A stretch of 36,206 nt of DNA from an uncultured Clostridia bacterium (lineage in GTDB: Bacteria > Bacillota > Clostridia > Christensenellales > UBA1242): positions 1-36,206 of the forward strand of contig CANQNH010000008.1 of the NCBI GenBank assembly GCA_947625165.1. The letters are read 5' to 3'. Position 1 is the first letter of the stretch. Each line of letters begins with the position of its first letter. Positions 3,711 to 32,675 of this stretch are shown here, one piece after another. The translations under genes were made by a program, and so were the position numbers. The notes beneath the pieces were generated by a model. It was given only the letters and a program-made list of their open reading frames with translations, was not told where the DNA came from and searched no databases.

Positions 3711-3741
3711 TTTGCTAAAAAGCGGAAAAATATAGTAAAAT
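3711..3741 (+). promoter_or_regulatory. Putative leaderless promoter of the protease gene
   Basis: TAAAAT (3736-3741) ends exactly 6 nt before the ATG at 3748. A weak -35, TTGCTA (3712-3717), lies 18 nt upstream. No SD precedes the ATG. The predicted +1 is the A of the start codon. Confidence 0.5.
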
Positions 3742-3747
3742 ATCAAT

Positions 3748-4479
3748 ATGTGGTGGACATATGTTATCATCGGTGTTGCAGCATTTTTGGCAGTGCTTTT
3801 GTGCCTTGCACTTGCAGTGGCAAGTTTTTCTTTTGACAACTATTATGAAAAATGGAAAAGCCTGAATGAAAAGCGCAATTCCTATGGCATCACAACGCTG
3901 GAATATGTTGAAAGCATAAACGAAAAATTTTTTGGCGGCAGGCTGAAAGTCACAAGATGCCGCGAGTTTGAGGACCACTATAGCACCGGCGTTATCGGTC
4001 TTTCGGCGCAAACAATGGGCTCAAACAGTTTGGCATCAATCTCCATAGTTTCGCACGAACTTGGCCACGCAAGGCAGGATTTTTCGGGCGACACACTCAA
4101 AAAGCATTGGAATATGCAGCGTGCAGGCAGAATTTGTGGGTTTTTCTTCCTTCCACTTTTGCTTGCAGGTGTGATTTTGTGCGCTCTTTGGGCGTTTGAA
4201 GTGCTTGCAGGAATGGCTTTTCTCATTATCGGTCTTGCTTGCGCGGGGGCAAGTTTGCTGATATTCTTGTTTGCGGTTGTGCTGAAATATAAAGAAATCA
4301 AAATTGAAAAAGAGGCGTCAGACTTTGCAATTGAGTTTATGCGGGAATATCTTTTGGAAATTGAAATCAAATATTGTCAAGAACTTTTGAACAGCGCTCG
4401 CTTGACCTATTGGGCAGGGCTTATTCGCACACTTTTGTCGTGGACAATGCTGACAAGCAAAACTCCAATGTTCAAGTGA
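3748..4479 (+). CDS. Membrane-embedded zinc metallopeptidase (YugP / Zn_peptidase_2-like)
   Basis: 243 residues. The N-terminal membrane segment is at about 2-27. A soluble part carries the zinc motif H103-E-L-G-H107 in the context VSHELGHARQ, as in the Zn_peptidase_2 (YugP) family. Two further membrane segments follow (about 129-151 and 153-178). Then comes KEASDFA around E189, where the family has its third-ligand region. The family is widespread in Gram-positives and its substrates are unknown. No SD is visible: the upstream bases are A/T only and a -10-like hexamer ends 6 nt before the ATG, suggesting a leaderless message. The last residues (SKTPMFK) are followed by a long A-rich tail. 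The fold assignment is good; the function is unknown. Confidence 0.85.
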   Translation: MWWTYVIIGVAAFLAVLLCLALAVASFSFDNYYEKWKSLNEKRNSYGITTLEYVESINEKFFGGRLKVTRCREFEDHYSTGVIGLSAQTMGSNSLASISIVSHELGHARQDFSGDTLKKHWNMQRAGRICGFFFLPLLLAGVILCALWAFEVLAGMAFLIIGLACAGASLLIFLFAVVLKYKEIKIEKEASDFAIEFMREYLLEIEIKYCQELLNSARLTYWAGLIRTLLSWTMLTSKTPMFK

Positions 4480-4684
4480 AAGAAGGTTTTACGCGAAGTG
4501 AAAAAAGAAAGCACTTAAAAAACAAAGACAAAAGACTGAAAGCGAGAACAACAATTTGTCCAAACAAAATTGACAAATCAAAGCGAAAAACAAAAAGCAA
4601 AAGTGGCAGCAAAATGTCTGAAAAAGCAAAGCAAAAGGCGACAGGCTGGCAAAAATCAACACAAAAAAACAAAAAAGTCAAAAC
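4480..4684 (+). other. A-rich, T-poor 3' tail
   Basis: This stretch after the protease stop is strongly A-rich and contains very few T residues (about one in ten between 4501 and 4680). It can be read as a Lys-rich frame, but no start signal or conserved pattern supports coding. It runs to the terminator at 4685, so it looks like a long unstructured 3' UTR. Confidence 0.5.
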
Positions 4685-4716
4685 AAAAAAAGAGGGGCAA
4701 ACAAGCCTTCTTTTTT
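4685..4716 (+). terminator. Terminator between convergent genes
   Basis: An A-run plus GAGGGGC, loop AAACAA, GCCTTC and six T. The stem includes a G-U wobble and one bulged G on the plus strand. It separates the protease from the minus-strand DUF1540 gene and is weaker when read on the minus strand. Confidence 0.6.
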
Positions 4717-4886
4717 CAATCTTTACTGATGAAACTTTTGCAAAAGTGAGCCTTTTCGCCGTTTGGCATAGGTTCGCCAGAGCCTTGCGAAACATCAATA
4801 ACAAGTTTGTTGCAGTTGCAACCCTTTTCGTTGTATATGCAGGTTTTCACATTGCATCTCACTCCGCTGTTGAGTTCTTCTTTCAT
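4716..4886 (-). CDS. DUF1540-type Cys-rich mini-protein
   Basis: 56 residues. It starts at the ATG at 4886, preceded by GGGAGGTG (complement of 4889-4896), so upstream in-frame starts are not needed. The pattern RCNVKTCIYNEKGC-NCNKLVIDV ... HFCKSF has the regularly spaced cysteines of DUF1540 proteins (CxVxxCxYN...C.C..I.V...C.SF). These are tiny, probably metal-binding Clostridia/Bacilli proteins of unknown role. A plus-strand Lys-rich frame covers the same bases but has no start signal; the family match and SD identify the minus strand as coding. It is convergent with the protease gene and shares its termination region. Confidence 0.85.
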   Translation of the reverse strand: MKEELNSGVRCNVKTCIYNEKGCNCNKLVIDVSQGSGEPMPNGEKAHFCKSFISKD

Positions 4887-5031
4887 AACACCTCCCGTGA
4901 CAATATTGTTTGCAAAGCAAAAAAAATCATACATCTGTCCGAAAAAGCGCAAGTTTTGTCATAAAATTGCCCAAAACCGCCGTTTTTGCATATAATTTTT
5001 TGAAATTTCATATATAATGTTGTTGAAATTG

Positions 5032-8109: not shown

Positions 8110-9690
8110 TTAGGATTTATATTTTTCCATATATTCTTCATAACTGAGTTGCTTGTCAACGATTGTGTTTTCGTCAACAATGTCAATAATCCTGTTTGCA
8201 ACCGTTTCAATGATTTCTTGGTCGCCTGTTGCAAACAGCATCGCGCCTTTGAAGTTGACCATTCCTTTGTTGAGGGAGGTGATGCTTTCCAGGTCAAGAT
8301 GGTTTGTTGGCTCGTCAAGAATGAGAAAGTTTCCGCTTTCAAGCATAATTTTTGCAAGCATACATCGCACACGCTCACCACCAGAAAGCACATTCACCTC
8401 TTTCAGACTTTCTTCGCCAGAAAACAACATTCTGCCAAGCCACCCGCGCACAAAACTTTCCGTTTTGTCTTTGGAATATTGCCTCAGCCAATCCACAATT
8501 GAAAGGTGGCAGCCATCAAAATATTCGCGGTTGTCCTGTGGAAGATATGACGATTTGATTGTTTTGCCAAATCTGAATGTGCCACTGTCCGCCTCTTCCT
8601 TGCCTGCAAGGATATTGAAAAGTGTGGTCAAAACCAAAGAATTTGACGAAAGAAAAACAATTTTCTGCCCGTGTTCGACGGTGAAAGAAAGATTTTTGAA
8701 CATTCCTTTTTTGGTCAGATTTTCAACTTTCAAAATTTCTTTGCCAATTTCTTGGTCATATTTGAAATCAACATATGGATATTTTCTTGATGATGGCTTG
8801 AAATCGTCGATTGTCAGGCGTTCAAGTTCTTTTTTGCGGCTTGTTGCTTGTTTCGATTTTGAAGCATTGGCAGAAAATCGCGCGATAAAGTCTTTCAGTT
8901 CTTTTGCACGCTCTTCGGCTTTCTTGTTTTGGTCTTTGCGCTGTCTTGCCAAAAGTTGACTTGTTTCATACCAAAAATCGTAGTTTCCAAGATACATATT
9001 GATTTCGCCGAAGTCAACATCACAAATATGCGTGCAAACTTTGTTGAGAAAGTGTCGGTTGTGCGAAACAATGATGACAATGTTTTCAAAATCAAGAAGG
9101 AAGTTTTCCAGCCAACGAATTGTTTTGAAATCCAAATTGTTTGTTGGCTCGTCAAGAATGAGGATGTCGGGATTGCCAAACAGAGCCTGAGCAAGCAAAA
9201 CTTTCACTTTGACTTTGGCATCAAGTGTGGACATAAGGTTGTTGAAACAGTTTTCGCTGACACCCAAATTTTGCAAAAGCGATTTTGCCTCCCCATCTGC
9301 TTCCCAGCCGCCTAGTTCGGCAAATTCTGTTTCAAGTTCTCCTGCGCGAATGCCATCTTCGTCAGAAAAATCAGGCTTGGCATAAAGTGCATCCTTTTCC
9401 TTTTGAATTTCCATCAGGCGTTTGTGGCCAAGCAAAACGGTGTCCAAAACAGTTTCGGCATCATATTTATTTTGATTTTGTTCCAAAACAGACATTCTTT
9501 CGCCCGGAGTGACAACAATCTCGCCGGTGTTTGGCTCAATTTCGCCCGTCAGAATTTTCAAAAATGTTGATTTTCCCGCACCGTTTGCACCAATAATGCC
9601 ATAGCAGTTGCCTTTGGTGAATTTCAAATTGACATCTTTATAAAGTTTTCGCCCGCCAAAAGCAAGCGACACATTGACTGCTTGTATCAT
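8110..9690 (-). CDS. ABC-F family ATPase (YkpA/YbiT-like) with one degenerate composite ATP site
   Basis: 526 residues. The ATG at 9690 has AGGAG just upstream. There are two ABC domains and no membrane segments; the linker has the ABC-F ARFSANASKSKQATSRKKEL motif. ABC-F proteins act on ribosomes (translation factors or antibiotic protection). NBD1 has an intact Walker A, G34-ANGAG-K40-ST, and LDEPTN. NBD2 has an intact signature, L435-SGGE, and LDEPTNHLD. However, the NBD1 signature is LDAKV at 156-160 instead of LSGGE. The NBD2 Walker A is degraded (SSNSLVLTT, 348-356), with Leu354 where Lys is expected. The NBD2 switch His is gone (FATGDQE), and NBD1 reads SHNRH. So only the NBD1 Walker A/NBD2 signature site should hydrolyse ATP. 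It lies 10 nt after the 9701 gene in the same operon. Confidence 0.93.
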   Translation of the reverse strand: MIQAVNVSLAFGGRKLYKDVNLKFTKGNCYGIIGANGAGKSTFLKILTGEIEPNTGEIVVTPGERMSVLEQNQNKYDAETVLDTVLLGHKRLMEIQKEKDALYAKPDFSDEDGIRAGELETEFAELGGWEADGEAKSLLQNLGVSENCFNNLMSTLDAKVKVKVLLAQALFGNPDILILDEPTNNLDFKTIRWLENFLLDFENIVIIVSHNRHFLNKVCTHICDVDFGEINMYLGNYDFWYETSQLLARQRKDQNKKAEERAKELKDFIARFSANASKSKQATSRKKELERLTIDDFKPSSRKYPYVDFKYDQEIGKEILKVENLTKKGMFKNLSFTVEHGQKIVFLSSNSLVLTTLFNILAGKEEADSGTFRFGKTIKSSYLPQDNREYFDGCHLSIVDWLRQYSKDKTESFVRGWLGRMLFSGEESLKEVNVLSGGERVRCMLAKIMLESGNFLILDEPTNHLDLESITSLNKGMVNFKGAMLFATGDQEIIETVANRIIDIVDENTIVDKQLSYEEYMEKYKS

Positions 9691-9700: not shown

Positions 9701-10438
9701 TTATTTGTTGCGAATGTTTGCCTTGTTGTTTTGTTGCTTCAAGGTTTGAATTTCTTTTGTGTTTTGCAATTTTTGCTCTTTTTTGACCGTTTTTTCAACA
9801 ATTTTTGCATCTTTTTTGTTGATTTTTGTTTGAGTGTTGGTTTTTTGAGCCTCTTGCACAGCAAATTTTTCGTTTTGCTCTTTTTGTTTTTTCTTTCTTT
9901 GTTCAATCTCTTTCACTTTGGCAAGGAAGTTGGCTTTGTATTTATGCTCAAAGTCAAGCAAAAGGGTTTGAATGTCCACATCGTTTGCATACAGTCCGTC
10001 CAACATCTCGCCAAGAACGGGATTGAGGTTGAAAATTTCTTGATAGGCGGCAACCTCATCAAAACTTTGAGAGCGAAAATCTTGCAAAATGCGTCTTGTC
10101 AAAAACATTCGCATATCCATATAAATTTCCATTTTTTGCAAAAAATCAGGCGTAAAAAACGAAAAAAATCGATTTTGAAGCATCTTTTTGCAATTTTTCA
10201 AAGAATTTTTGAAGTGTTTTTTAACTTTTTTCTTGTCTTCATAAACAAACGAAGGAACGATGTTTGTGTTTGACATTTCACCAAGCAAAATTCTTTCTTT
10301 GATTGTCTTTTCGTTGACATCAAAGTCGTCTGGCAGAAAATCGCGGCCAAAATACTTGTATTGCTTGCTCAATTTTCTGTTTGTGATGTTCAGGAAGTTG
10401 TATATCTCCCAATTTGTGTTTAGATTTTTCTTTTTCAT
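9701..10438 (-). CDS. Unknown basic protein with coiled-coil C terminus
   Basis: 245 residues. I chose the ATG at 10438 because TTGACA-17-TATAAT ends exactly 6 nt before it and no SD exists; an upstream in-frame start would lie inside the promoter. The N-terminal half (MKKKNLNTNWEIYNFLN...) is helical and aromatic/basic. The C-terminal ~90 residues are Lys/Gln/Asn-rich and strongly coiled-coil or disordered. There is no signal peptide, membrane segment or recognisable domain. It is the first gene of a two-gene operon with the ABC-F ATPase, which may hint at a ribosome or RNA context, but that is only inference. The message should be leaderless. Confidence 0.8.
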   Translation of the reverse strand: MKKKNLNTNWEIYNFLNITNRKLSKQYKYFGRDFLPDDFDVNEKTIKERILLGEMSNTNIVPSFVYEDKKKVKKHFKNSLKNCKKMLQNRFFSFFTPDFLQKMEIYMDMRMFLTRRILQDFRSQSFDEVAAYQEIFNLNPVLGEMLDGLYANDVDIQTLLLDFEHKYKANFLAKVKEIEQRKKKQKEQNEKFAVQEAQKTNTQTKINKKDAKIVEKTVKKEQKLQNTKEIQTLKQQNNKANIRNK

Positions 10439-10444
10439 AGGTTT

Positions 10445-10473
10445 ATTATAAAACATTCACGCGTCATTGTCAA
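10445..10473 (-). promoter_or_regulatory. Consensus promoter giving a leaderless transcript
   Basis: Minus strand TTGACA (complement of 10468-10473), 17-nt spacer, TATAAT (complement of 10445-10450), then 6 nt (AAACCT) and ATG. The predicted +1 is the A of the ATG at 10438. Confidence 0.88.
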
Positions 10474-10661: not shown

Positions 10662-10722
10662 CTCTCCGATTTTATCGGCAGATAAAATATTTCAAGAATT
10701 TGTGTTTTGTTTGTCTTTTTGT

Positions 10723-10750
10723 TTGAAAAAAAATTATTTAATGTTATAAT
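10723..10750 (+). promoter_or_regulatory. Promoter of the giant surface-protein gene
   Basis: TTGAAA (10723-10728), 16-nt spacer, TATAAT (10745-10750) with extended TGT. The start is predicted near 10757, giving a ~67-nt leader. It sits directly downstream of the phased T-tracts. Confidence 0.85.
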
Positions 10751-10823
10751 AAACTTGTCGAAAAAGCAGACAATATTTTTATTCAAAAACTCAAATCGAA
10801 AAAACTCAAATTGGAGATGTTTT

Positions 10824-13800
10824 ATGGCTAAGAAAAAAAGAGGAGTGATGAAACTCTGGCTCGCGATTGTGCTGGCTGTGGTTGGTCTTGTGGCAATTGC
10901 TGGCACAACGGTGCTTATTATGTTTTTGCTTGGAAATTTCAAAGAGAAGGTTGTTCCACCTGAAAACATTGCTGTTGAAACAACTGAAGAGTTTGTTGAT
11001 GGGCTTGCGTCTTTTGATGCGGATGCCTCTTCTCTTTCGGACCAAGACAATCGAAGGTTTCATTTCAACGCATCATCCAATTTCAGCATTGTGATTTCCA
11101 CCACAACCGAAGATGTGACCACCACAGAACTGACCTTGAGTGAACTGAGCGGTGGTTCGCTTAAAAACGGGAAATGGGAAAATGGATACATACGCATTCC
11201 TCAAAAAGCAAAACTTGGCGAAAAGATTGAAATTGAACTTTTGACAGATGCCGACCTCGGCGATGTTTTTGGAGGATATTCAATTTTCACGGTCAGGTCT
11301 GCAAATGCTCTGCTTGCTCCAGTGAAAGTGAGTGTTTCGACAGATGTTTCTGTGAGGGAACTTTCGCTGAAGATTGCTGGCAGAGAAGGCAAAAATGACA
11401 ATGGTCCAGAGGAAGTTTTGCGCGGAGATTTTCGAATTGAACCCAATTTCACTCCGGAAGAAAGCCAAAAAAACTTTTCCAATCCTGAAAATCTAAAGAG
11501 GGTGTTTTTCTCGGCAGAAGACATCAATCTTGAATGCCTGAACGCTGAAGAGGGCTTGTTCAGAACGAAGGATGTCATCACAACATCGCATGTTGACAGA
11601 ATAACGGCTTACACCTTCTCCAACGCGTTTTATCAAAATCAAGTTTTGGCGATGTTCTCGGAGTACTCGGGTGACGAACTTGCAACGCGGGTTATTCAGC
11701 ATCTTGTTCAAAATCCGCAAAAGTGCAAGACAAGTTTTATTGACATCAAGGTTGTGCCAGCAGAGATTGACAAGGTGAAATTTTCTGGCGAAGAAACCAC
11801 AAGAGAGTTGGAATTTGAAAACACGATTGACAAATATTTTGAACTCACTCTCAATTCCAACAAGGGTGACGACAGTTTGAATATGACCATCACTGACAAG
11901 AGTGGAAAGGATTTGAGTTCGCTCTTTTCCAGTGTGGGCATCAAAATTCCAAGAGGTGCAGAATTTGGCAATCTGCTCATTCTTGGCGGCAATGTTATGA
12001 AAGTTGCCACGGTCAACGACAGAAGGGTGATTTCTGTTGAACCATTCGACAGCAGCAAGCGATATTGGGAAGATTTGACGGCGGAATATTATGTTTTGCC
12101 AAACACCTCACCATCGCTTTATGAAAACTATTATTGGCGAATTGCAGACAGCAATTTGACGGCTCGAAGTTTTGATTTGAAACTCAATTTGTTCTATCAA
12201 GATGACGACACTGGCAGCGAATGGACAACCTTCTTCGACATTGGAACGGAAGGAAATTTTGAGCCAACTTTGCATTTTCAATCAACTATGTCGGCGTTTG
12301 AATATGCTCCAACGTGGACACAAAACAATCCAATCAGGCTGACAATCAACTATGGCGAGGATGGAACTCCAAAGCCGGATGCAGTTGATTTGAAAAATCC
12401 AAACATCTATGGCGGGGTCAGCAATGACAATGTCTATAAAACGGTCAAATTTTTCTTGTTCTGCTCTGCGGGAACAGATTTGTCGACAATTTTTGACTGC
12501 GAAAATCCAAAAGTGTATGCTTTGAAAAATGAAATCTATGGCTTGCCAAAGCCAGACACGAGCGAGGGCGGAGTTTATAACTACACACTTTATGGCATTG
12601 ATGGCACGATTTTGACCGCACTGAAGAGTTGTGCCGACAACATATATGTGGTTGCAGCGGTTGTTCGCACAGATGTGAATGGCAAACTTGTGACAACAGA
12701 AACGGGCGATTTGCAAATTGTTGTTGTCAGCAGGCCTTTGCAAATTGAGGTTGACAACGCACTCCCATTCTTCAAACTTGCCCCATCTTTTGATTTTGAT
12801 GGGACTGCAAGCATTGCACACAATGTGGACACGGGGGATTATTATGTTCCGTCCGTTTATGTGGACGATGATGGCAACAAGATGCAAATCATCAAGTTTA
12901 ATATGACTTTGGAGAGTGAAAATCGTGCATCTGACATTGTGAAAATTCGCGATGCGTTCAATTCAAGCGAAGAAGGCACAGAGCGTTTGAAAGTTGTTTG
13001 CAAAGACATCAACAACTTGGAAACAACCTCTGTTGTGATGCAAGTGCCTGAGGTCAAGGCAAGCGATTTGGATGAAAATCTGATTGAGGTCACGGCAAGC
13101 TTCTATATTGCCGATGGCGATTTCAACCGTGGCGATGCCGAAAGACGACTTAAGTTTGAACTGCAATATATCAACGAATTTAACGAAGAATTTTATAAGA
13201 AAATCTGCAAAAATGGCGAAGAAACAGTTGAAAGTGTTGTGGTTTACTATCCAGAAGTTGTCGCAATGAAGGGCGCTTATGAAGAAAGAACCGACTTGGA
13301 CAGAGATGATGATGGACAACCTGACGAAATCAAGATTGTTGATGATATTGACAAGGCAACAATATCTTGGGGGAATTGGGAAAAGGAAGGCACCACGCTT
13401 GATGCCATTCTCAACAACACAGATGGGCTTAATGCATTGCTTTCTTTTGCACTGACTGACCAACACGGGTTGACAATTCAAGAAAAAGCAGGGCTTTATG
13501 ATGTTCAGTTTGTGGAAATTCCACACGACGCCAACTCGCCAATTCTCAACTTTGACAGCGCAAACAGGCGCATTCAAGGGTTTAACACAAGTGAAGATTT
13601 GACAACCACCCTCAAAGTCCGAGTTGTTGACAGAGATGGTCAGCCGGTGATGTTTGGAGGCGAAGAGATTTCTCGCGAGTTTTCGTTTAATGTTTCTTGC
13701 ACAGGCATCGACCATATCAAATTTGACAACACACTCACCGATGTTGATGCGGCAACCAGAGATTCCAAAACGGAAACATTTGTTCTCAATGAACTTAATG

Positions 13801-16800
13801 GCATCAAAAACAACGGAAATGTGACAGTCACAAAATATGCCACTGTTGGCGTTGAAACCAGACTTTCAAATCTCTTTGATGTCTTCTTGGATGAAGCGGA
13901 AGAACAAAGAGTTTCAAACTTGAAATTCACATTGGCGGATTCGTTCTATAACGGGATGAGTTTGGACATCTTGAAAGTGTTTGGCTTTGCAACTGCCACA
14001 GATGTGACAGAAGGCCATTTTGACACCAAAACAAACACCGGAGATGACTACTCTTCTTTGCGTGATGCCATCCAGGGTGAAGTGTTTGGTATTGTGTTCT
14101 ATGGCTACATCCAATCCACAATCACAATTGAGTTTAATGTCACGGATGCAAGCGAAAGATTGTTTAACATTCAGTTCCGACTTGTGTGCAGACCTTGTGC
14201 CAGCCTGGATTCCACATTCAGCCGCTATTCTCAAGGCACATATGCGGACTATCTCAAAACAACCAGCGAGGACAATCGCCAACCGGCAATTTTCGCAGAT
14301 GAGAAATATTCTTTGGATGAATATATTCCAATTTCATGGATTGGCAGCAGTCTGCCTGATGTGCAACCATCTTGGACAACAATTCTCAATGGTGTTGACG
14401 ACTTGGGGCAATATTTTGAATGCAACAGTTTGAATGTCACTCTTGCAAGAGAGGAAAACGCGGGTGGGAACTCTTACCATCTCAATGTTGGCAGGTTCTT
14501 CCAACTGCAAACAATTCAATTCACAATTTTCTGCGGGCAAAGTGAAAGATATTCTCTTCGCACAACAATCACGCTCTATGTCAACCCAAACTTTGTGATT
14601 GTGCAAAAAGTTGCGGATGCAGATGCAAATATGCAGGTGGATTTGCAAAGCCTTAGCAGCAGTTTGTTTGATGTTTTCAAAGTGACCGGTGATGATGGAT
14701 ATGTTGAAAAACGTGAAAGCGCAACATCAATCAAAAATCAGTTTACATATGCCAACACAACAGGCGCGGGCTTGGAATATGTCACACTGACATTGACTTC
14801 TGGGAACATTGCGCTTGGTGTCAACACCAACCAATTGAATATGAAGTTGGGTGAAAAGATTTTGCAAACGTTTGTTATGCAAACAGCATCTTCAACGGGC
14901 GACCCAATCAATGTTGATGCTGTCAAAGTGAAAACATTTGGTGAGGACGAAGAAAAAGTTGAACAATGCTCAGAGGCAACATTTGCGTTTGACATCGGCT
15001 TTGGTGACAACGCCTATGAGATGGCGCAAAAACTCATCAAAAAGGGTGATGGCAAAAATGTTGAAACCGTTGCGTTCAATGGAAAAGAGACAATTGTTTT
15101 GCAATCCGGTTTGGACTACACCGTTGGCGACACGTTCTCCATTGAAAGAGTGAGCGGAAACATAAATTGGACAGAGGGCAAAACAATCAGAGCAAAAACT
15201 TTGTCAAAGGCATTTTTCAATCCGCTTGATGGCGGCGAGGGTAACACGGTTGTTGTCAAAACCACGATTGATGGAAAGTTGTCTGTGCTGATAAGCCTCA
15301 ACGCCATTGTCAGCCAGGTTGGCGAAGTGTTTGTGAAGTATGACCAACCTGACGAGGAGACAAGAGAAGATGTGTTCAACAAGTTTGGTGATGTTGACTT
15401 TGCCGAACTTGTTGGGGCAAGTGTCACAAATTTGGAAGAAAATGGAGTTTATCAACAACTTTCAGCCGGCAAAACTTACAAGATTTTGCACAACATTGCA
15501 AAGGCCGACACCTCAGACAAAGATGAAAATGGAAAATTCTTGCCAGGACTTTATTATTACGCAGAAACTGACACCGAGTTCAATTTGACACTTTCAGTTG
15601 TGGGGTGTGTGGGCTATATTGATGGCTTGGCAAGTTTGACAAACCGAGATGGAACATACTATCTGACCATCAACGACCTGAAAAATGACACCGAAAGCGA
15701 TGTGTTTGTTGTTGTCAGAGCCACAGTTTCCAGTGTTGGCAAGACCCCATTTGTTTGGAACTTCCGCATCAAAGTGCAAAGCAACTTGGAAGGCGGCATT
15801 GTGGCTTATCCATACGCAGACAATGTGGAATATTTGGACACAAATTCGACTTATTATGTTGATGGGCAATATCACATCAATCTTCAAGAGCAACTTGTTG
15901 AAACAAACAGCAAGTTCAAGACTGATGACGAAAAGAAGCGTTTTGCTGACCCAGACTTTGGCGATGGCAGAGATGTGCAGATTGGCTTCAAGATTGCAAG
16001 TGCAAGAATTGGTGACAGTGTTGCAACGTTGTCAGTGGCAGACCTTCAAGATTTGGTTGAAAGTTGCTCGCTTGACCTTTCAGGCGGCGAAAGTGCGCGC
16101 GTTGACAGTGCTGCCGACTTTGATTTTGACATCAAATTGAAGAGCAATCTGACAAGACTGACGATTGAAATTGCAAAATTCTATTATGTTGATGGCAATC
16201 GTGCGCTTTCAAGCACAGACCTTTCCTATGTGTTCAAATTCAATCAATCACCTTCATATAAAGCATCTGTCACGACCGGCGGACAGTCAATTGTTGGAGT
16301 GGACAATGTGTTTGCTTACAATGTCAAAGCCGGAAGCGGAGAAAACATTTTCAACATCACTCTCAGCGAACTTAGCGGAACAAGTGAAAATGCTGAAGGC
16401 GAATTTTGGGCATATGCAAAATCGCTCAGTGGCAATTTGAGTGATGCCATAAGCGGCGGAGTTGACTTTGAGGGCAGAAATGGCGCAGGTGTTTTGAAAT
16501 TCACTCCACAAAACAGCGTGGCAAAAGACAGTGTTGTTGAATTTGGCATATACACGAAAAAGAAGGTTGCATTCAAACTTATCATCACGGTGACAGGCCC
16601 ATATGACATCACAGAAACGGGTGCAGAGTTGAAGGGTGGAAAGATTTATCGCCTTGCCGAGCTCTTGTCCATCAAGGGCGCAGACGGAAGAACAATTCCA
16701 GATGCGAGTGTTTCAACTTCTTGCGCAAACGATGCTCCAACGACATATTTTGTCAACACCAGCGGAGCAGGACAAATCGGCTTTGCAAATCTGACAGCGG

Positions 16801-19800
16801 ACACAACATTCAAGTTTGTGTTCACAATTTCGGGCTATTCTTTTGAAAGAGAATTTGTTGTCAAAGCAAGCGTTGACAGTGGCGCAACTTACACTCACAA
16901 AGACACCGAAAAGAGATATGGTGGCAAAGAGTTCTCTTTTGACATTGCAGGCGTGCAAAGCGACATTCCAACAAATGAGGACAGCACATTCACATACAAG
17001 ATTTGGAATGGTTCAGAATTTTCAACTTCTGTCAACATCACACCAACAAGCATCGGCGAGGAGCAACCTGTTTCGCAGTCGTTCACAATTGGGTGCTTCA
17101 ATGGCGACAATGAACTTTTCAGAATAACATTGATTTATAACTACACTGTTTTCCCAAATGTTGAAACAACGTTGCACTATCCAGCCCCAAACGGCACAGA
17201 ACTTGAAGATAATGCAGAATATTTGTCAGACAATACAACCATTGAAAACTTCTTTGGCAGCAAGGCGCAATTCAACTCTCAAAACAGGGTTGTTGTGAAT
17301 GTTGTTGATGAAGCAGGCATCACGGAAACGAATTGGAAAATCACAGTTGACGCAAACAGCATCAACAATCTTCAACTGACTTATGGAGATGGCAGAGTTG
17401 TGACCAACCAGTCCACAACTGGCGAACTTGTGCTTTGTGAAGGTGACGAGGCGCAAGCGCGTGCACTTGGCTTCACCTTCAAACTTGTCGATGCATCAAA
17501 AACGGGGTCGATTGACTTTGTTGTCAGTGTCAACTCGGTGGAGAAGGTCTATCGTGTTGTTGTGCTGACCGGAAAAGTGATTGACTTGCAATTGAACTCT
17601 CCAAGTTCGTCAAAAGAGCGTTTCTATGCCGAAGATTTGAAACGACAAGCAGATGCAAAAATCTTTGCTCCAAACAGAATTTTGAAATATGCGTTCAACG
17701 AGCAGACCACAGCATCTGGCGGAGCAACCTATTATGCCCGTTTGGCATCCAGCACAGATGTGCAGGCAATTGCTGTCTATGCTGACAACACAGCGATGGT
17801 TGTTCAAGATTTGGAGAAATCGTATGAGGGTTACACCTATCAAGGCACATTCCTTAGCAAAGCAGAGGCGGAGAATTTGTCCAACACGCAGAATTTGGAC
17901 GAAACAATCTATGCCACTGCACCGCGTTTGACCGCAAGAGTTGCGGCAATATACAGAACTTTGACAAAAGACATTGAGATTGATTTGCAGAAGGCGGGAT
18001 ACACCATCAAATTGAACGGAACAGACAGCAAAGATGTTGCAATCAGTGTCAAAGATTTGTCGAAAGAGATAAAATATGAGCCAAAACTTTATCAAGGAGA
18101 TGAGATTGTTGAAACATCAAGTTTTACATACAGTGTTGAGGTTTCTTTGAAATTTAACATTCAAGTGACATCAGACGATCCAAACAGCGACACAAAGAAA
18201 ATCATTCTCAAAGCGGACAATGAATATGTTTCTTTCTTGGACACTTACGCGCAAGAACTTGGCATCACTGATGAAAATGGCGAAACAATGACTGCGAGGA
18301 GGATGCAAGAGATTGGCGCAAGTTTTGACATTCAAATTTATGGCGCATCAATTGCACTTCAACAAAATGCAGGCAGCAACGATGCTGAAAAGAAATTGAC
18401 CAACAATGCACTTTCAATTCACAACCGACTGCTTGTGGAACAATACACTTCTTCGGCAGGCCTGAAATATCGCTACACCACCGGACTTATTCCACGTGCA
18501 AAATGCACACTTAGTGATGGTTTTGTTGATGCCGATGGCGGAGAAACATTGACAAACAGACTTAACTACATCACGCTGACTGCAGTTTCAAATGGCTCGG
18601 ATTGGACAATCAGGGCGCAGGGTTCAAACAACAATGGAAATCACGTTATGCTTCGTTTGGACTATGTTGTTGACCTTGGCGGTGGAAATGTGGCAAAAGA
18701 GAGCCACAATTTGCTGTTCTTGGTTGAGCCAAACACCACACTGACTTTTGCAAGTGATGCACAAGGCGAAATCAACACCGCTGTTGTTGCCCAAGACTAT
18801 GACGCCGAAGGCGACAAACTTATCACAAGCAACAGGGCTGTGCCATATAAGGTTGATTTCAATATGACAAGTGGCGACAGTTTTGACATCAACCTGTTTG
18901 GTGGAAGATATCCTGTCATCAACGTGATGTTGCACGGCTCCACAATCAACACGGCCAACACCTTGACTTACAAATATACAAACACAAGCACCGAAATTGC
19001 AGGAAAGACTTACAACGACAAAACTTTAACATTCTTGAATTTTGGCACCGGTTGGAGTGGTTATCAAACATCTAATGGGGCAGAAGAAGTTGCGATAACA
19101 GCAAAATCAACCACTTTCGGCAGTGCAAACTTCTATATCGAATTTGAAGACGAGTTTGAGTTTAAGATGAGGTTCTATTTCACCATCATCTCGCGTTCAA
19201 ACCCAACTTTGAAAGGCGAAGGCACAATCAATGAAGGCGACACCTTGCGCTTTGGTGCAAGATACAGCACACTCAAACAAAATATGGACAATGGCGATTT
19301 TATGGTTGTTGGGTCGTTTAATTATGCTGTTGAAAAATCGCCAGACGATGTGTTCACAGAAAACATTCCTGACACTGAAAAATACAACAACTATGTCAAA
19401 TTCACAAACAACACAACATACGCGGCCACATTGAAAATTGTTGTGAAAGACAGTGAAAGAGACTATGTCAACATTTTTGATCCTCTAAGTGCAGGGGAAA
19501 CGAAGATTTATCAAGTGTTCTATGAAGAAGCAGCTTGGGTGGACGGAACCCCAACTCAAGCAAACATCAAGACGGTTGAAGTTCGCGTGAAATTTGAGCA
19601 ATCTGGCAATGAATTTGAGATTGGAACATATTCTGTTGAATATGGCAACAATGCAAAAGAGCAAAAAGAGCCATATTTTGACGGAGAAGAGGATTATTCT
19701 GAAGACGAAACGAATAATAAAAATGTTGAGTTTGAAAACGGCGTTGCCAAAACGGACGGATTTATCAGAAACAACAGAGGAACAGATGAATCTTCTCAAA

Positions 19801-24167: not shown

Positions 24168-24186
24168 AAAAAATCAAAAAACAACA

Positions 24187-24225
24187 CAAAAATCCGCAAT
24201 TTCAATTTTAAAAAGCGGATTTTTT
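24187..24225 (+). terminator. Terminator of the giant-gene/cls operon
   Basis: AAAAATCCGC (24188-24197), A/T loop, GCGGATTTTT (24215-24224): a 10-bp perfect stem running into T. It is immediately followed by the next promoter element. Confidence 0.85.
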
Positions 24226-24233
24226 GCAATAAT
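24225..24233 (+). promoter_or_regulatory. Putative leaderless promoter, extended -10
   Basis: TGCAATAAT: extended TG plus AATAAT (24228-24233), ending 6 nt before the ATG at 24240. No good -35 is present, because the terminator stem occupies that region. No SD is present. Confidence 0.55.
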
Positions 24234-24239
24234 TTTGGT

Positions 24240-25004
24240 ATGAACAACAAAAAAGAGCAAAAACAGTTTGAGAAGCAAATTGAGAACAGTCTTCCAAAGC
24301 AAAATTTGGACGAAGAATGTGACATAAGCATCATCCGCAAAATTGTTTTTGAAGAAAAACAAAACGCACCAGACTATGCCATTTATGACATAATTTTGGC
24401 AAACATCATCGCACTTGCGGGAGTGTTTTTGGCGGCGTTTGTGCCGGTTGTCAGTTTTGCGCTGCCCGTTTTGTTTTTCATATATATTGAGGTTGGGCTT
24501 GGCGGCTTTGTCACAAAGAAACAACTTGGACTGAGAGCAAAATTTGAAGATATGTTTGTTTCTCTCAAAAAATATGTTCGGCTTTTTTGCGTGTTCATCA
24601 TCAAAATGGTGCTTGTGGCGTTTTGGCTTTGCATTTTCATTGTGCCGGGCGTGATTTGTTTTCTTGACTATTGCTTTTCCGCAAACATCCTTTATGAAAC
24701 GGACGATTTAGACGCAAAAAGTGTTCTGATTTTAAGCAAAGAGCTTGTCAACGGCTATCGTGCCACCATTTTTCTTTATATGGCAATTGCTTTGGCAAGT
24801 TTGGCGGTGTCGGTGAGTGTTATGTTTCTGATTTTGATGCTTTTTGATGTGTTTTTTGTTGTGACGCCGTTGTTTTATCTGGTTTTCATCCTGCTTGCGC
24901 TGTTTTTGGACTTTCTGCTTGTGGCACTTCCACTTGTGGAAACGGCCATTGCGGACTGCTATATTGATGCGAAAAAGAACAAAATTTTGCGAAAACAAGC
25001 CTGA
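24240..25004 (+). CDS. DUF975-like polytopic membrane protein
   Basis: 254 residues. The ~45-residue charged N-terminal tail is followed by about five membrane segments. The stretch PGVICFLDYCFSANILYETDDLDAKSVLILSKELVNGYR resembles the conserved region of DUF975 proteins (polytopic, small residue then A-x-x-x-L-x-x-SKELxxG). There the loop between membrane helices reads 'low/decayed state - D/E - A - SK'. Function is unknown in the family. It starts at the ATG at 24240 without an SD; a TGnAATAAT element ends 6 nt before it, so the message is probably leaderless. The last codons form one arm of a 12-bp inverted repeat. Confidence 0.75.
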   Translation: MNNKKEQKQFEKQIENSLPKQNLDEECDISIIRKIVFEEKQNAPDYAIYDIILANIIALAGVFLAAFVPVVSFALPVLFFIYIEVGLGGFVTKKQLGLRAKFEDMFVSLKKYVRLFCVFIIKMVLVAFWLCIFIVPGVICFLDYCFSANILYETDDLDAKSVLILSKELVNGYRATIFLYMAIALASLAVSVSVMFLILMLFDVFFVVTPLFYLVFILLALFLDFLLVALPLVETAIADCYIDAKKNKILRKQA

Positions 25005-26094: not shown

Positions 26095-26101
26095 ATGCTT
26101 C

Positions 26102-26129
26102 AATATGAAAAAAACAAAAAAAATGCCAA
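26102..26129 (-). promoter_or_regulatory. Possible leaderless promoter for the minus-strand gene
   Basis: Minus strand TTGGCA (complement of 26124-26129), 16-nt spacer, CATATT (complement of 26102-26107), 7 nt before the ATG at 26094. The -10 matches consensus at only 4 of 6 bases. Confidence 0.4.
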
Positions 26130-27434: not shown

Positions 27435-29519
27435 TCAAACCTTTTTGGTTTCACAAACTTTGCATTTTTTGTTTTTTGTGGGATTGTATCGCAACGCACG
27501 AATGCTGTTTAATATTGCCAAAAGTGTGACGCCAACATCTGCAAACACCGCAACCAGCATCCCCGTGACGCCAAATGACCCAAGTGCCAAAAACACCAAT
27601 TTGACAACAGCGGAAACGCCAATGTTTTCAAGCACAATCCTCTTTGTGAATTTGGAGATTTTGATTGCGCTTATGATTTTGTGTGGATTGTCGTCAACAA
27701 GCACAACATCGCTCGCCTCAATGCTTGCCGGTGCACCATTGATGCCCATACTTATTCCAACATTTGCCAGCGCAAGTGAGGGTGCATCGTTGATGCCGTC
27801 CCCAACATATGCCACTTTCATTTTTTCTTTTTGGTGGCTTTCAAGAAAGGCATATTTGTCCTCTGGCAGCAATTTGCCGACCGCCTCATCAACTCCAACA
27901 CTGTTTGCAACTTTTTCCACAATTGCTGGATTGTCGCCCGAAAGCATAACGGTTTTTATTCCCAATTTTTTGAGGTCTTGACAGGTTTCGATTGCTGTGT
28001 GTTTGAGCGTGTCAGCAAGATGAATTTCTCCGATTTTCTTGTTGTTTTCAAAAACTTCCACCGTTGTTGTGCTCAAATTTTTGGTTTTTCGACCAACAAA
28101 ATAGTCCTTTTCACCAAAGGAAAACTTCACGCCAAGGCCTGCCTCTTCCTTGAAATTTTCAAGTCTTGGCAATCTCTTTTTGTTTGCCGCAACAATGGCA
28201 TTTGCAAGTGGATGGATGGAATATTGTTCTCCAACAGCCGCCAAGAAAAGAATGTCTTTTTCGGTTTTTGTCTTGTCCAAACTTTCCACTTTTTCAACCT
28301 CAAATTTGCCTGTTGTCAGAGTGCCGGTTTTGTCAAAAGCGATGAGATCAAGATTGGCACACGCATCAAGATAGTTTGACCCTTTGATGAGAATGCCGTT
28401 TTTGGATGCGTTGCCCAGCCCGGAAAAATAGGACAGTGGCACGGAAATCGCAAAGGCGCACGGGCAGGAAATGACCAAAAAGATGAGGCCGCGATAGATT
28501 GCTGTGTCAAAATTTTTGGTGACCGCCCAAACAATGCCCCAAACAGAGACTGCAAGCAAGATGATGCCAAGGGTGTACCATTTGGTGATTTTTGAAATGA
28601 AAGTTTCGGTTTTGCTTTTGTTTTCGGTGGCGTTTTCAACGAGGTTCATAATTTTGCTGATTGCGCTGTTTTCATAAAGACTGGTTGTTTTCACAACAAC
28701 AACTGCATCAAGAATGATTGTTCCGGACAGAATTTTGTCACCTTTTTTCAGTTGCACCGGAACACTTTCGCCGGTCAAGTTTTGCATATCTGCCAATGCA
28801 GAGCCTTCCACAATGACGCCATCCAAAGCAACTTTTTCGCCTGCGCGCACCAAAATTTTGCTGCCAACTTTGACGGTGTTTGGCAAGACTTTTTCAGTCG
28901 AGCCGTTTTTCAGCACCAAATTTGCGTATTCAGGTTGCAATTTCGCCAATTTTTCAATGCTTTTGCGGGATTTTTTCACTGCCAAGTTTTCAAAAATCTT
29001 CCCGATGGAATAAAGCGCAATCACCATCAAACCTTCCATATTTTCACTGACGATTGATGCGCCAACAACAGAAATTGTGATGAGCAAGTTTTCGTTTATG
29101 ATGCCCTTGAAAAGCAGGCGAATGGCTTTGAGATAGGTTTTGTATCCAAGCAAAAGCGCGCTGATGACATAAAGTGTCCAAAAGCACCAAGTTGGCATTT
29201 TGACAAAGAAAATCACAAAACCGATGGCAATTCCCAAAAGCAAAAATGAAACATCCAAAATCAACATTTTGTCAAATTTTTCATCTTTTTTCTCGCTTTT
29301 TTGGGCAAAATCTTCGATTTTTGCGTTTGGCTCCAATTCTTTTGTCAGTTTTGTCACTTTTTGCATCGTTTCGTCAACATTTTCGCTCTCAAACGAAAGA
29401 GTGCTTTTGACAAACTCAATATGCACATTTTTTATGCCCTCAATTTTGGCAAGTTCGCCTTCAAGGGTTTTTGCGCAATTTGGGCAGTCAAGCCCCTCAA
29501 TTTTCACTGTTTTTTTCAT
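27435..29519 (-). CDS. cadA: Heavy-metal P1B-type ATPase (Cd/Zn/Pb exporter)
   Basis: 694 residues. It starts at the ATG at 29519 with GGAG upstream, inside the last 23 nt of the repressor gene. The N-terminal HMA domain binds metal through C12-PN-C15. Eight membrane helices are expected. The transport-site motif is C352-P-C354. D396-KTGT is the phosphorylated Asp. HPLANAI is the nucleotide-site HP motif, and GDGINDAP is the hinge. CPC, the single HMA domain and the CadC-like partner fit the Cd/Zn/Pb (P1B-2) class rather than copper. The C terminus ends KKCKVCETKKV, an extra CxxC that may be a regulatory metal site. It exports metal ions with ATP hydrolysis at the membrane and is co-transcribed with its repressor. 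Confidence 0.95.
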   Translation of the reverse strand: MKKTVKIEGLDCPNCAKTLEGELAKIEGIKNVHIEFVKSTLSFESENVDETMQKVTKLTKELEPNAKIEDFAQKSEKKDEKFDKMLILDVSFLLLGIAIGFVIFFVKMPTWCFWTLYVISALLLGYKTYLKAIRLLFKGIINENLLITISVVGASIVSENMEGLMVIALYSIGKIFENLAVKKSRKSIEKLAKLQPEYANLVLKNGSTEKVLPNTVKVGSKILVRAGEKVALDGVIVEGSALADMQNLTGESVPVQLKKGDKILSGTIILDAVVVVKTTSLYENSAISKIMNLVENATENKSKTETFISKITKWYTLGIILLAVSVWGIVWAVTKNFDTAIYRGLIFLVISCPCAFAISVPLSYFSGLGNASKNGILIKGSNYLDACANLDLIAFDKTGTLTTGKFEVEKVESLDKTKTEKDILFLAAVGEQYSIHPLANAIVAANKKRLPRLENFKEEAGLGVKFSFGEKDYFVGRKTKNLSTTTVEVFENNKKIGEIHLADTLKHTAIETCQDLKKLGIKTVMLSGDNPAIVEKVANSVGVDEAVGKLLPEDKYAFLESHQKEKMKVAYVGDGINDAPSLALANVGISMGINGAPASIEASDVVLVDDNPHKIISAIKISKFTKRIVLENIGVSAVVKLVFLALGSFGVTGMLVAVFADVGVTLLAILNSIRALRYNPTKNKKCKVCETKKV

Positions 29520-30133: not shown

Positions 30134-30162
30134 TTGACAGGGCGGGAAAAGTGAGATATAAT
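30134..30162 (+). promoter_or_regulatory. Consensus promoter giving a leaderless transcript
   Basis: TTGACA (30134-30139), 17-nt spacer, TATAAT (30157-30162), then 6 nt (GTGACT) and the ATG at 30169. No SD is present; the predicted +1 is the A of the ATG. Confidence 0.9.
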
Positions 30163-30168
30163 GTGACT

Positions 30169-31248
30169 ATGGAAACACAAAAACAGGAAATTTTGAAACA
30201 AATTTTGTATAACGCAAAACAAATTTGCAGACGGGGTTCGGTGAAGTTCACATCGTATCGAGAGAGCGACGATGCAACCGAAAATTGTTTCAGTGTCTAT
30301 CTTGCCACAAACGAGAATTGTGCCTATTTTCCCAAAATGACCTCGTTTGAGGACAAAGATGTTTTGAGTGTGACGGGAAGCGGCGACCACGCGTTGAATG
30401 CCGTCTTTTTTGGAGCAAAATCGGTGGAAACCTTTGACATCAACCGACTTGCGTTTCTGTTTTGTGACCTCAAAGAAACCGCGCTTTTGCACCTCACCAG
30501 AAGTGAATTTGTGGATTTTTATGATGAAACAAATTTGTTTCCGCATCAACTTTATGACAAAGTTTCGCCATTTTTAAAAAGCGAAACAAAAGAGTTTTTT
30601 GATGGACTGTTTGAGTATATAAAATTTGCACCAGAGGGAGATTTTTTACGACCATTTTATATGCAAGAGGTTTACACACACTCACAGGGGGTGTGCACGC
30701 AAAAACAGGGGGCAAACGCTGAAAAAGGTTTCAGCAAGACATCTTGCGTCATGAGAAATCTTATTGAAGAGTTTGGCAACACTGCTCAAAACCTCATTAT
30801 CAACAATCCCTACCTTGTCAGTGAAAAAACATACAAAGAAACTCAAAACAGGCTGAAATTGCTCAAACAACCTGTTGGGCACAAGTTTTGCCCCGCACAT
30901 AAAATTGGTGAAGAGTTTGAGCCAAAGGATGTTGTGATTTTGTCCAATGTTTTGCGGTTTTATTTGGATAATTTATATTTTTTCTTTCTATGCGACCAAG
31001 ATGACAATAAGGATTGGGGCAAAGATTTTGTAAAATCGTTGTCAAAGGTGATGAAAGAAGATGCTGTTGCAAGTATGCTTTATGAATATTCATCTATGAC
31101 TTATTGTTCTAGTGAAAAAAAGTTGCGCACAAAGATGGGTGTGAATTTGAATAAAATCACTGTTGACGAGGATGATTTTGGAGCAAAGCAAGCAACGGTT
31201 TGGGTTGCCAGCAAAAGTGATTTGCAGGCTGACAGTCGCGTATTATGA
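30169..31248 (+). CDS. DUF3419-like / SAM-dependent methyltransferase-fold protein
   Basis: 359 residues from the ATG at 30169; earlier in-frame starts fall inside the promoter. The N-terminal part has LATNENCAYFP followed by the Rossmann motif VLSVTGSGDHALNAVFFGAKSVETFDINRLA, where G-S-G-D plus the acidic FDIN end of strand 2 are SAM-binding features. PKDVVILSNVLRFYLDNLYFF resembles motif IV and the following helix. I recognise this arrangement from uncharacterised DUF3419-type proteins of Bacillota; the reaction is unknown. Residues near 172-190 (THSQGVCTQKQGANAE) look like an inserted loop coded by unusually G-rich DNA. It is monocistronic and leaderless, with a terminator downstream. Confidence 0.78.
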   Translation: METQKQEILKQILYNAKQICRRGSVKFTSYRESDDATENCFSVYLATNENCAYFPKMTSFEDKDVLSVTGSGDHALNAVFFGAKSVETFDINRLAFLFCDLKETALLHLTRSEFVDFYDETNLFPHQLYDKVSPFLKSETKEFFDGLFEYIKFAPEGDFLRPFYMQEVYTHSQGVCTQKQGANAEKGFSKTSCVMRNLIEEFGNTAQNLIINNPYLVSEKTYKETQNRLKLLKQPVGHKFCPAHKIGEEFEPKDVVILSNVLRFYLDNLYFFFLCDQDDNKDWGKDFVKSLSKVMKEDAVASMLYEYSSMTYCSSEKKLRTKMGVNLNKITVDEDDFGAKQATVWVASKSDLQADSRVL

Positions 31249-31254
31249 AAAAGG

Positions 31255-31280
31255 CAAGTCGAATTTGACTTGTTTTTTTA
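31255..31280 (+). terminator. Intrinsic terminator
   Basis: CAAGTC (31255-31260), loop GAATTT, GACTTG (31267-31272), then seven T. It begins 6 nt past the stop of the methyltransferase-like gene. Confidence 0.8.
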
Positions 31281-31372
31281 GAGTTTTTGTTGATTGTTAT
31301 TGTTCTTTTGCGATTTTTTCTTATTTCTTCACAATTCATTTGCTGCTTAGTCAAAAAAGTGCTTTTGCAAAA

Positions 31373-31402
31373 TTGATAAAACTTTTCAAATTGTGTTATA
31401 CT
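31373..31402 (+). promoter_or_regulatory. Promoter of the Y-polymerase gene, leaderless
   Basis: TTGATA (31373-31378), 18-nt spacer, TATACT (31397-31402) with extended TGT. It ends 7 nt before the ATG at 31410. No SD is present. No CGAAC-N4-GTTCG LexA box is visible here. Confidence 0.8.
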
Positions 31403-31409
31403 GACACTG

Positions 31410-32675
31410 ATGGACAAGCAGAGAGTGTTTTTTGTGATTGATATGAAGTCCTTTTTCGCATCGGTGGAGTGTGCGGAAAGGGGGCTTGACGCGATGACCA
31501 CAAAACTTGTTGTTGCAGACGAAAGCCGAACAGAAAAAACAATCTGTTTGGCGGTTTCGCCAGCACTGAAAGCGCTTGGCATCAGAAATCGCTGCCGACT
31601 TTTTGAAATTCCAAAAGACCTTGATTTTCTTATTGCACCGCCGCGAATGAAAAAATACATCGAGTATGCCGCTGAAATTTATGGGATTTATCTTCAATAC
31701 ATCGACAAAAACGACATTCACACCTATTCCATTGACGAGTGTTTTTTGGATGTGACGGACTATTTGAAACTTTACGGCCTGCGTGCAAAAGAGTTCGCGC
31801 AAAAACTTATGGGCGAGATTGATGCCAAACTGCACATTCCGTCCACTGCGGGAATTGGCACAAATATGTATTTGGCGAAAATTGCCCTTGACATCACTGC
31901 AAAACACGCCAAAGACCGAATTGGCTGGCTTGATGAGGAGAAGTTTGTCAGAACCCTGTGGAAACATCAACCCATCACTGATTTTTGGGGAATTTCCACC
32001 GGCATCGCAACGCGGCTGGCAAAATTTGGCATTTTTGATATGGAAGGAATTGCCAAGGCAGACGAGGATTTGTTGTATGACGAATTTGGCGTCAACGCCG
32101 AACTTCTGATTGACCACGCACGCGGCAAAGAAAGTTGCCTTATGAGCGACATAAAAAACTATAAGGCCAAAGGGCATTCAATTTCTTCTTCGCAGATTTT
32201 GCCGAGGGACTATAACTTCAAAGACGCAAAACTTGTGATGGATGAAATGGTGCAGACGGGATGCTATGAGATGTTTCGGCAGGGCTATGTGACCGACCAT
32301 ATCCACTTGTTTGTGGGCTATGGTGACGAAAAAAAGGGCGGGGCAAAGGATATGCGCCGAATGAACGTTGTGACCAACCTTTTTTCAATCATCGGCAAAG
32401 TGGCTGACGAGATGTTTGACAAGTTTGTGGACAAGTCCAGACCGATAAGGCGTGTGGGCTATGCGTTTGACCTTTTGCCCGAGGCGTGTGAGCAATATGA
32501 TATGTTTGTTGACCCAGAGCAAATTGAAAAGGAAAAGCGGTTGGTGTGGAGCATTTTGGATTTGCAAGACAAATATGGCAAAAATTCCGTTTTGAAGGCG
32601 GCAGATTTTGAAAAGAACGCCACGATAATTCAGCGAAACAACACAATTGGAGGGCACAGCAGTGGAGAGACCTAA
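31410..32675 (+). CDS. Y-family translesion DNA polymerase (DinB/UmuC-like)
   Basis: 421 residues. The catalytic carboxylates are D11 in FFVIDMKSFFASVEC and D109-E110 in YSIDECFLDVTDY. F15-F16 hold the steric-gate position. The palm/fingers (1-~190), thumb with helix-hairpin-helix (DFWGISTGIATRLAKFGI) and little-finger domain (about 245-360) follow in the usual order. This is the Gram-positive UvrX/YqjW-like branch that pairs with YolD-like proteins, and a YolD-like gene indeed overlaps its 3' end. It copies past DNA lesions. The C-terminal ~50 residues (KNATIIQRNNTIGGH) are low in conservation. The message has no SD and should be leaderless. Confidence 0.93.
   Translation: MDKQRVFFVIDMKSFFASVECAERGLDAMTTKLVVADESRTEKTICLAVSPALKALGIRNRCRLFEIPKDLDFLIAPPRMKKYIEYAAEIYGIYLQYIDKNDIHTYSIDECFLDVTDYLKLYGLRAKEFAQKLMGEIDAKLHIPSTAGIGTNMYLAKIALDITAKHAKDRIGWLDEEKFVRTLWKHQPITDFWGISTGIATRLAKFGIFDMEGIAKADEDLLYDEFGVNAELLIDHARGKESCLMSDIKNYKAKGHSISSSQILPRDYNFKDAKLVMDEMVQTGCYEMFRQGYVTDHIHLFVGYGDEKKGGAKDMRRMNVVTNLFSIIGKVADEMFDKFVDKSRPIRRVGYAFDLLPEACEQYDMFVDPEQIEKEKRLVWSILDLQDKYGKNSVLKAADFEKNATIIQRNNTIGGHSSGET

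Follow-up and report, generated by a model that had tools for sequence, protein, structure and literature searches.

The window analysed here is a stretch of 36,206 nt from an uncultured Clostridia bacterium of the order Christensenellales (assembly GCA_947625165.1, contig CANQNH010000008.1). Several of its genes begin with an ATG located 6–7 nt behind a −10 promoter box. The question raised by this locus is whether such genes are transcribed into leaderless mRNAs, which carry no 5′ leader before the start codon. The initial annotation reported a perfect TTGACA-17-TATAAT promoter ending 6 nt before the ATG at 10438 (minus strand) and at 30169 (plus strand), with no Shine–Dalgarno (SD) sequence, and both are present in the DNA exactly as described. 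The same geometry was proposed at four other sites; it stands at 3748, 24240 and 31410, and falls to chance level at 26094, which had been given as possible. According to the results described below, leaderless genes are very probably present as a class and at 10438, 30169, 3748 and 31410. The gene at 24240 is a likely member, and 26094 is unsupported. The sites and genes are as follows.

10439–10473, minus strand: promoter TTGACA-17-TATAAT, 6 nt to ATG 10438; the predicted +1 is the A of the ATG.
9701–10438, minus strand: predicted leaderless gene for a 245-residue protein with no family match, followed by the SD-led ABC-F ATPase gene 8110–9690.
30134–30168, plus strand: promoter TTGACA-17-TATAAT, 6 nt to ATG 30169.
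30169–31248, plus strand: predicted leaderless gene for a 359-residue protein with a DUF3419 match; upstream in-frame GTG/TTG alternatives are present.
3712–3747, plus strand: promoter with TAAAAT 6 nt before ATG 3748 and a weak −35 box (best 4/6, spacer 18).
3748–4479, plus strand: predicted leaderless gene for a putative neutral zinc metallopeptidase (PF04298; Zn-peptidase hereafter), with no upstream in-frame start.
31373–31409, plus strand: TG-extended TATACT 7 nt before ATG 31410, with a −35 box of 5/6 and spacer 18.
31410–32675, plus strand: predicted leaderless gene for a Y-family DNA polymerase (DNA polymerase IV-like, PolIV-like hereafter), with no upstream in-frame start.
24225–24239, plus strand: TG-extended AATAAT 6 nt before ATG 24240, directly 3′ of a hairpin; the best −35 box is only 4/6, with spacer 15.
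24240–25004, plus strand: probable leaderless gene for a 254-residue protein with no family match and no upstream in-frame start.
26095–26107, minus strand: CATATT 7 nt before ATG 26094, unsupported as a −10 box (4/6 matches); in-frame starts lie upstream.

None of the SD words searched for was found at any of the six sites. In order to see whether the geometry exceeds chance, the distance between −10 boxes and start codons was analysed in the genome itself, which has 1,038,144 bases in 56 contigs, is 82% complete and contains the window as its contig C8. Twenty stretches of 20 kb were combined with the window (436 kb). Genes were called by hexamer coding score, and the ATG closest to the coding peak was taken as the start, ignoring promoter and SD. 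Of 319 genes, 292 starts were used; genes within 70 bases of a stretch end and those lacking an ATG close to the coding peak were dropped. A strict −10 box was defined as TA...T with at least 5/6 matches, and d as the number of nucleotides between the box end and the start codon. Strict boxes were found at d = 6 in 17 and at d = 7 in 6 of the 292 starts; each of the remaining distances up to d = 13 gave 0–2. The sum of 23 compares with 2.0 expected for two positions (Poisson p about 5e-17). At 1,653 internal in-frame ATGs, used as a control, 7 boxes at d = 6 and 4 at d = 7 were detected. Among the 20 distinct permutations of the hexamer, TATAAT gave 23 at d = 6–7, and all others gave 9 or fewer. 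The effect belongs to ATG (28 of 469 candidates at d = 6–7); GTG (7/279), TTG (4/508) and CTG (1/111) show no clear peak. The 23 candidates also resemble promoters in their other elements: 18 carry a −35 box of at least 4/6 and 11 a TG extension, where random coding positions give 29% and 9%, respectively. The initial annotation had named a genome-wide scan of this distance as a check, and the scan, run on 42% of the genome, gave the SD-free peak at 6–7 nt.

The whole genome was searched with the perfect promoter as well. The pattern TTGACA-N16–18-TATAAT-N4–9-ATG gave 11 matches, and the reversed-pattern control gave none. Among these 11, the ATG lies at exactly 6 nt in four and at 4 nt in four; in two of the latter, another ATG follows at 7 nt. 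When 0–30 nt were allowed before the ATG, 32 matches from 31 promoters were obtained; at other short spacings, there is one ATG at 10 nt and two at 14 nt. No SD word follows the promoter in the case of ATGs at 4–14 nt, and one does in 17 of the 18 cases with the ATG at 19–30 nt. As a separate observation, one perfect promoter elsewhere in the genome (contig C20, 738–799, minus strand) is followed, 2 nt on, by an inverted repeat (GGATGTTTTCGCTGAAAAACATCC) and then by the ATG. Its transcript would begin with a hairpin.

The box and the SD are nearly exclusive. An SD is absent from 22 of the 23 box candidates and present in 175 of the 269 other starts (Fisher p 6e-9). The single match, in front of uvrC (locus L026), is located above the −10 box and so outside the predicted mRNA. 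SD words are likewise absent from the box candidates of three sibling genomes (14/14), of genome G130 (13/13) and of 80 named loci (44/45). In total, 176 of the 292 starts (about 60%) have an SD, and the anti-SD in the 16S tail (GGATCACCTCCTTT) is intact; therefore two initiation modes coexist, as the initial annotation had supposed from the clear SDs of other genes in the window. A genome type that has lost the SD, as in Bacteroidetes, does not fit these numbers. The strict-box share of starts is 7.9% here, 4–7% in the three siblings and 4.5% in G130. These shares are lower bounds, and the level in Actinobacteria and Deinococcus is about 20% or more. Leaderless initiation is thus predicted to be a minority mode of about 7% or more of the sampled genes (strict box, background subtracted). 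In the window, clear SD leaders are found at the genes 3242, 6871 (minus strand), 26297 and 34049, and two of them give a direct contrast.

3192–3244, plus strand: perfect promoter, SD-bearing leader and ATG 3242.
33999–34051: perfect promoter, SD-bearing leader and start of the gene at 34049.

When the −10 hexamer spans −12 to −7, counted from the A of the ATG, the usual +1 falls on that A; at bacterial promoters, pyrimidines are favoured at −1 and purines at +1. The base before the start codon was examined accordingly. At d = 6, this base is T in 17 of 17 cases in the own genome and a pyrimidine in 11/12 cases in the siblings, 10/10 in G130 and 36/37 in the named loci, which makes 74/76 in all sets. 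At SD-led starts, the proportion of pyrimidines is 46% in the own genome, 55% in the siblings, 71% in G130 and 68% in the named loci. The contrast is significant in the own genome, the siblings and the named loci. The initiator base and the geometry in orthologues point to a transcription start on the A of the AUG. Bacterial transcription start sites vary by a few bases, so that a very short leader of 1–5 nt, with transcription beginning slightly upstream, has to be considered instead of a true leaderless end, and the d = 7 class, with no clear pyrimidine at −1, would agree with it. At d = 6, however, a start above the A would be unusually close to the box, and the purine at −1 is found in just 2 of 76 cases. 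We regard a short leader as unlikely for the class. A one-base leader is possible at 31410, because this site has G at −1 and belongs to the d = 7 class.

The geometry is conserved at single genes. Homologues of the Zn-peptidase were drawn from loci fetched by GlyRS (the best 80 of at least 588). Among 26 homologues, two lacking the N-terminus were dropped. In 22 of the remaining 24, a strict box precedes the ATG, at 6 nt in 20 and at 7 nt in 2, and the other two have a weaker 4/6 TANNNT box at 6 nt. The base at −1 is a pyrimidine in 24/24. An SD word was found in the last 20 nt before the start in 0/24. In the ungapped alignment of these upstreams with the own one (n = 25), T at −35 and A at −11 are present in 25/25, and T at −12 and T at −7 in 23/25 each; the mean identity over 60 nt is 45.5%. 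This layout is kept down to 31% protein identity.

In the case of uvrC, the 30 best-scoring loci of 61 genomes, own locus included, were taken in each of two groups, the order and the rest of the phylum. Within the order, 14 of 30 orthologues have the box exactly 6 nt before the start, which is ATG in 13 and GTG in one (L217). Elsewhere in the phylum, one of 29 loci has no findable start codon; the remaining 28 show the box layout in none and an SD in 24 (order versus phylum, p 2e-5).

The PolIV-like gene behaves differently. Among 18 orthologues in the genus with at least 63% identity, five have the box at 6–7 nt (the own gene, L114, L127, L129 and L130), and an SD word precedes 10 of the remaining 13. 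Thus, this gene switches between predicted leaderless and SD-led forms among species of one genus (L113–L130). The upstreams of L113 and L117 have TGTGTTATACT in common and differ by an SD-bearing stretch before the ATG.

The breadth of the effect was surveyed with the pattern TTGAC-N17–19-TATAAT-N6–7-ATG, using the same pattern with N10–11 as the control. In 200 genomes of the order, 1,003 matches were obtained against 514 in the control. In 118 other genomes of the phylum, two of them from the same class, the numbers were 169 and 216, with no excess. The ratio for families with at least three genomes ranges from 0.5 to 4.2. The own genus gave 61 against 22 (10 genomes). An excess is also present in the families f32 (183 against 65), f15 (107 against 43), f17 (97 against 34), f19 (38 against 9), f25 (77 against 28), f14 (50 against 20) and f6 (83 against 45). 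At the gene level, an f15 genome with a guanine–cytosine (GC) content of 59% has strict boxes at d = 6–7 in 13 of its 289 starts (2.0 expected), and the siblings have them in 3/76, 5/99 and 7/95. The 80 named loci (817 starts) gave 37 at d = 6 and 3–8 each at d = 4, 5, 7 and 8. There is no excess in a genome of family f4 (G047, 61% GC, 1/144) or in another phylum member (G262, 48.5% GC, 1/102). A phylum-wide effect is ruled out by the phylum survey and by these two genomes, while the 59% GC relative shows the excess. The predicted leaderless mode is a trait of the lineage that many families of the order show and others lack.

The genomes of the own genus are small (about 0.7–1.5 Mb), the PolIV-like gene changes its mode between species, and the excess is missing from three genomes of other genera in the family. 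These features would suit a local accident of genome reduction, in which leaders were deleted in this genus without selection. Families with genomes of 1.2–2.3 Mb, such as f32 and f15, nevertheless show a similar excess, and the Zn-peptidase layout persists in distant homologues. We consider such an accident quite improbable.

The family profile matches of the MiaB, Der, MurG, PcrA, MurA, UvrC and DusB candidates start at residues 1–10 and at profile positions 1–8, and the ATGs are therefore supported as true starts. The other candidates of the genome sample are a pseudouridine synthase, an ABC ATPase, an isochorismatase-like protein, an alpha/beta hydrolase, an AddB-like protein whose match begins only at residue 412, and familyless proteins. 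For the window gene at 10438, four of five homologues have a strict −10 box 6–7 nt before an ATG together with a 6/6 −35 box, and the fifth (L083) has TATAAT 6 nt upstream of a second ATG. Homologues of the 30169 protein were found in 4 of 40 other genomes of the genus. In L269, a homologue from another genome, the aligned ATG has TATAAT at exactly 6 nt, and most other family members found look SD-led. The 24240 protein has no homologue among the loci collected here (E 1e-8), so that this call is less certain.

If the ATGs were not the real starts, translation would begin at an SD-led codon downstream or at an in-frame codon upstream, and the boxes would be ordinary or internal promoters. Upstream in-frame alternatives do exist at 30169 and 10438, and the coding-score start for the 30169 frame is TTG 30127. 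SD-preceded start codons are located downstream as well, a TTG 8 codons into the 30169 gene and an ATG 28 codons into the 31410 gene. However, 3748, 24240 and 31410 have no upstream start, the start 28 codons in would truncate the conserved N-terminus of the 31410 protein, the 10438 homologues and one 30169 homologue share the ATG at the same spacing, and the seven housekeeping proteins begin at or within a few residues of the family N-terminus. A general misplacement of the starts is very improbable. According to the homologue N-termini, the adjacent ATG is the predicted true start; 24240 stays a candidate in this respect, and 26094 is unsupported.

Three observations on these genes may be added. 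The hairpin before 24240 (24185–24226, plus strand, with a U run; −10.9 kcal/mol, z −3.8) ends at the TG-extended −10 box of this gene. It is a likely terminator, and terminator and promoter may share bases; a simple terminator scan missed it, its 17-nt loop exceeding the limit of that scan, and the Rfam and tRNA scans of the window gave no matches. The leaderless miaB candidate (L019, 6866–8002, minus strand) encodes 378 residues, and its match to the 437-position profile stops at position 376; the product may therefore lack the usual C-terminal part. Several leaderless candidates of the own sample and of G130 are DNA-repair proteins (PolIV-like, UvrC, PcrA and AddB-like).

Several results weigh against the leaderless interpretation. 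With a relaxed box, the excess at d = 6–7 shrinks to 37 against 16.5 expected among the 292 starts, and little or none is left in two of the three siblings (G339, 5 against 6.0; G336, 10 against 9.0; G347, 10 against 5.5). The site 26094 fails, its 4/6 box being at the chance level of these relaxed boxes, and it was rejected as a leaderless promoter. Neither box nor SD is present at 94 of the 292 starts, perhaps partly owing to wrong start choice. In G130, the difference in pyrimidines at −1 is of borderline significance (p 0.06). No clear pyrimidine preference is seen in the d = 7 class (4/6 in the own genome, 2/3 in G130, 5/8 in the named loci), and 31410 has the G noted above. The uvrC gene was picked since it is leaderless in the own genome and in G130, and is thus a non-random gene; its orthologues L204 and L205, from the same genus, lack the layout, as do 13 of the 18 PolIV-like orthologues. 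The three genomes from other genera of the own family gave 4 against 7, and there is no excess in the families f4 (26 against 30), f24 (22 against 29), f20 (29 against 26), f33 (3 against 6) and f29.

Chance, by which AT-rich upstream DNA yields TATAAT-like hexamers near ATGs, accounts for weak boxes such as that of 26094 and has next to no probability for the class, since strict boxes peak at d = 6–7, unlike those at internal ATGs and the permuted hexamers, since the peak recurs in the 59% GC relative, and since the spacing is kept in homologues. The geometry, the genome-wide excess, the SD absence, the homologue-fitting starts, the initiator pyrimidine and the conservation are read directly from the DNA.

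From these features, we infer the transcription start, the sigma factor and 70S initiation. The housekeeping sigma factor would read an ordinary −35/−10 promoter whose −10 hexamer covers positions −12 to −7 upstream of the start codon. RNA polymerase would then begin on the A of the ATG, or perhaps one base earlier at spacing 7, and the resulting mRNA would have neither 5′ leader nor SD. The ribosome, probably as a 70S particle with initiator tRNA, would bind the 5′-terminal AUG. Most genes of the same genome use SD leaders, and the anti-SD is intact.

The initial annotation regarded widespread leaderless messages as not usual for low-GC Gram-positives. This is only partly right: leaderless genes are documented in streptococci and, by RNA-seq, in C. 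acetobutylicum, and are predicted in Lactobacillales and Mycoplasma, but are reported as few or rare in C. phytofermentans and C. difficile. Leaderless genes were predicted in 56 of 209 Firmicutes genomes (mean 4.2%), mainly in Lactobacillales and Mycoplasma (Zheng et al., 2011, PMC3160421). In streptococci, 8–9% of mRNAs are leaderless by differential RNA sequencing (dRNA-seq), and in S. agalactiae all of these start with AUG, 90% of them starting on the A (PMC6431027, PMC4448216). Among the leaderless transcripts of S. pyogenes, 81% are also leaderless in S. agalactiae, and lactococci have a TATAAT-type box with TG (PMC6431027, PMC4448216, PMC3160421). These organisms are, like the present one, low-GC Gram-positives with the SD as the main mode and a similar leaderless share; they belong to another class and were studied by dRNA-seq and not from sequence alone, and a further point of difference is that 18 of the 23 candidates here have a −35 box with at least 4/6 matches. 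In Deinococcus-Thermus, about 30% of open reading frames have an adjacent −10 box TANNNT, which was reporter-tested (PMC12340547). The principle, a −10 box at a fixed short distance giving leaderless mRNA, is the same, whereas the share here is about 7–8% by the strict TATAAT/TAAAAT box. The own share resembles that of streptococci rather than that of Deinococcus. In Actinobacteria, about 20% of genes are leaderless (PMC3160421); the box shortly before the start and the mixed modes per genome are shared, and the phylum and the share differ.

Nearer relatives, of the same broad NCBI class Clostridia, have also been studied. Leaderless starts make up 4% of one class of transcription start sites in C. 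phytofermentans, generally with another upstream start site and a ribosome-binding site (PMC5171806). There are 15 leaderless genes in C. difficile (PMC7438776), and 212 by RNA-seq among the detected-protein genes of C. acetobutylicum, shifting under stress (PMC4533764). The present set differs in being box-defined, SD-free and conserved. A survey cited in PMC9581028 covered 4,769 bacterial genomes and predicted leaderless transcription in 21.6% of them; it may include genomes of this lineage. No paper on the lineage was found among those listed from the open-access literature.

Two further genes of the window are of note. A heavy-metal P-type ATPase gene (E1-E2 ATPase and HMA domains; 27435–29519, minus strand) has GGAG before its ATG. 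An open frame of 3,999 codons (10707–22706, plus strand) occupies a third of the window. Its in-frame ATGs 10824 and 10848, the latter preceded by GAGGAG, are likelier starts than TTG 10707, and a 1,500-residue piece of its product (10839–15338) has no Pfam match.

With these results, the range of predicted leaderless initiation would come to include a large lineage of mostly uncultured Clostridia, a class in which three maps of cultured members describe it as few, rare or condition-linked. The kind of initiation is known, and what appears to be new is the lineage and the conservation at single genes. The Zn-peptidase and uvrC are conserved test genes, with the promoter spacing fixed to the start codon down to 31–42% protein identity. 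Gene finders that rely on the SD may misplace the starts of leaderless genes. The patchy distribution among families (ratio 0.5 to 4.2) makes gain and loss of the initiation mode testable. As a tentative possibility, less likely than not, many families of the order may carry an old, selected leaderless set, including the Zn-peptidase, uvrC and others, several of them for DNA repair. Promoter, initiator base and start codon would form one unit in these genes. The set may be translated by a second initiation route and perhaps share a common regulation, for instance in response to stress, with the SD genes staying on the usual route.

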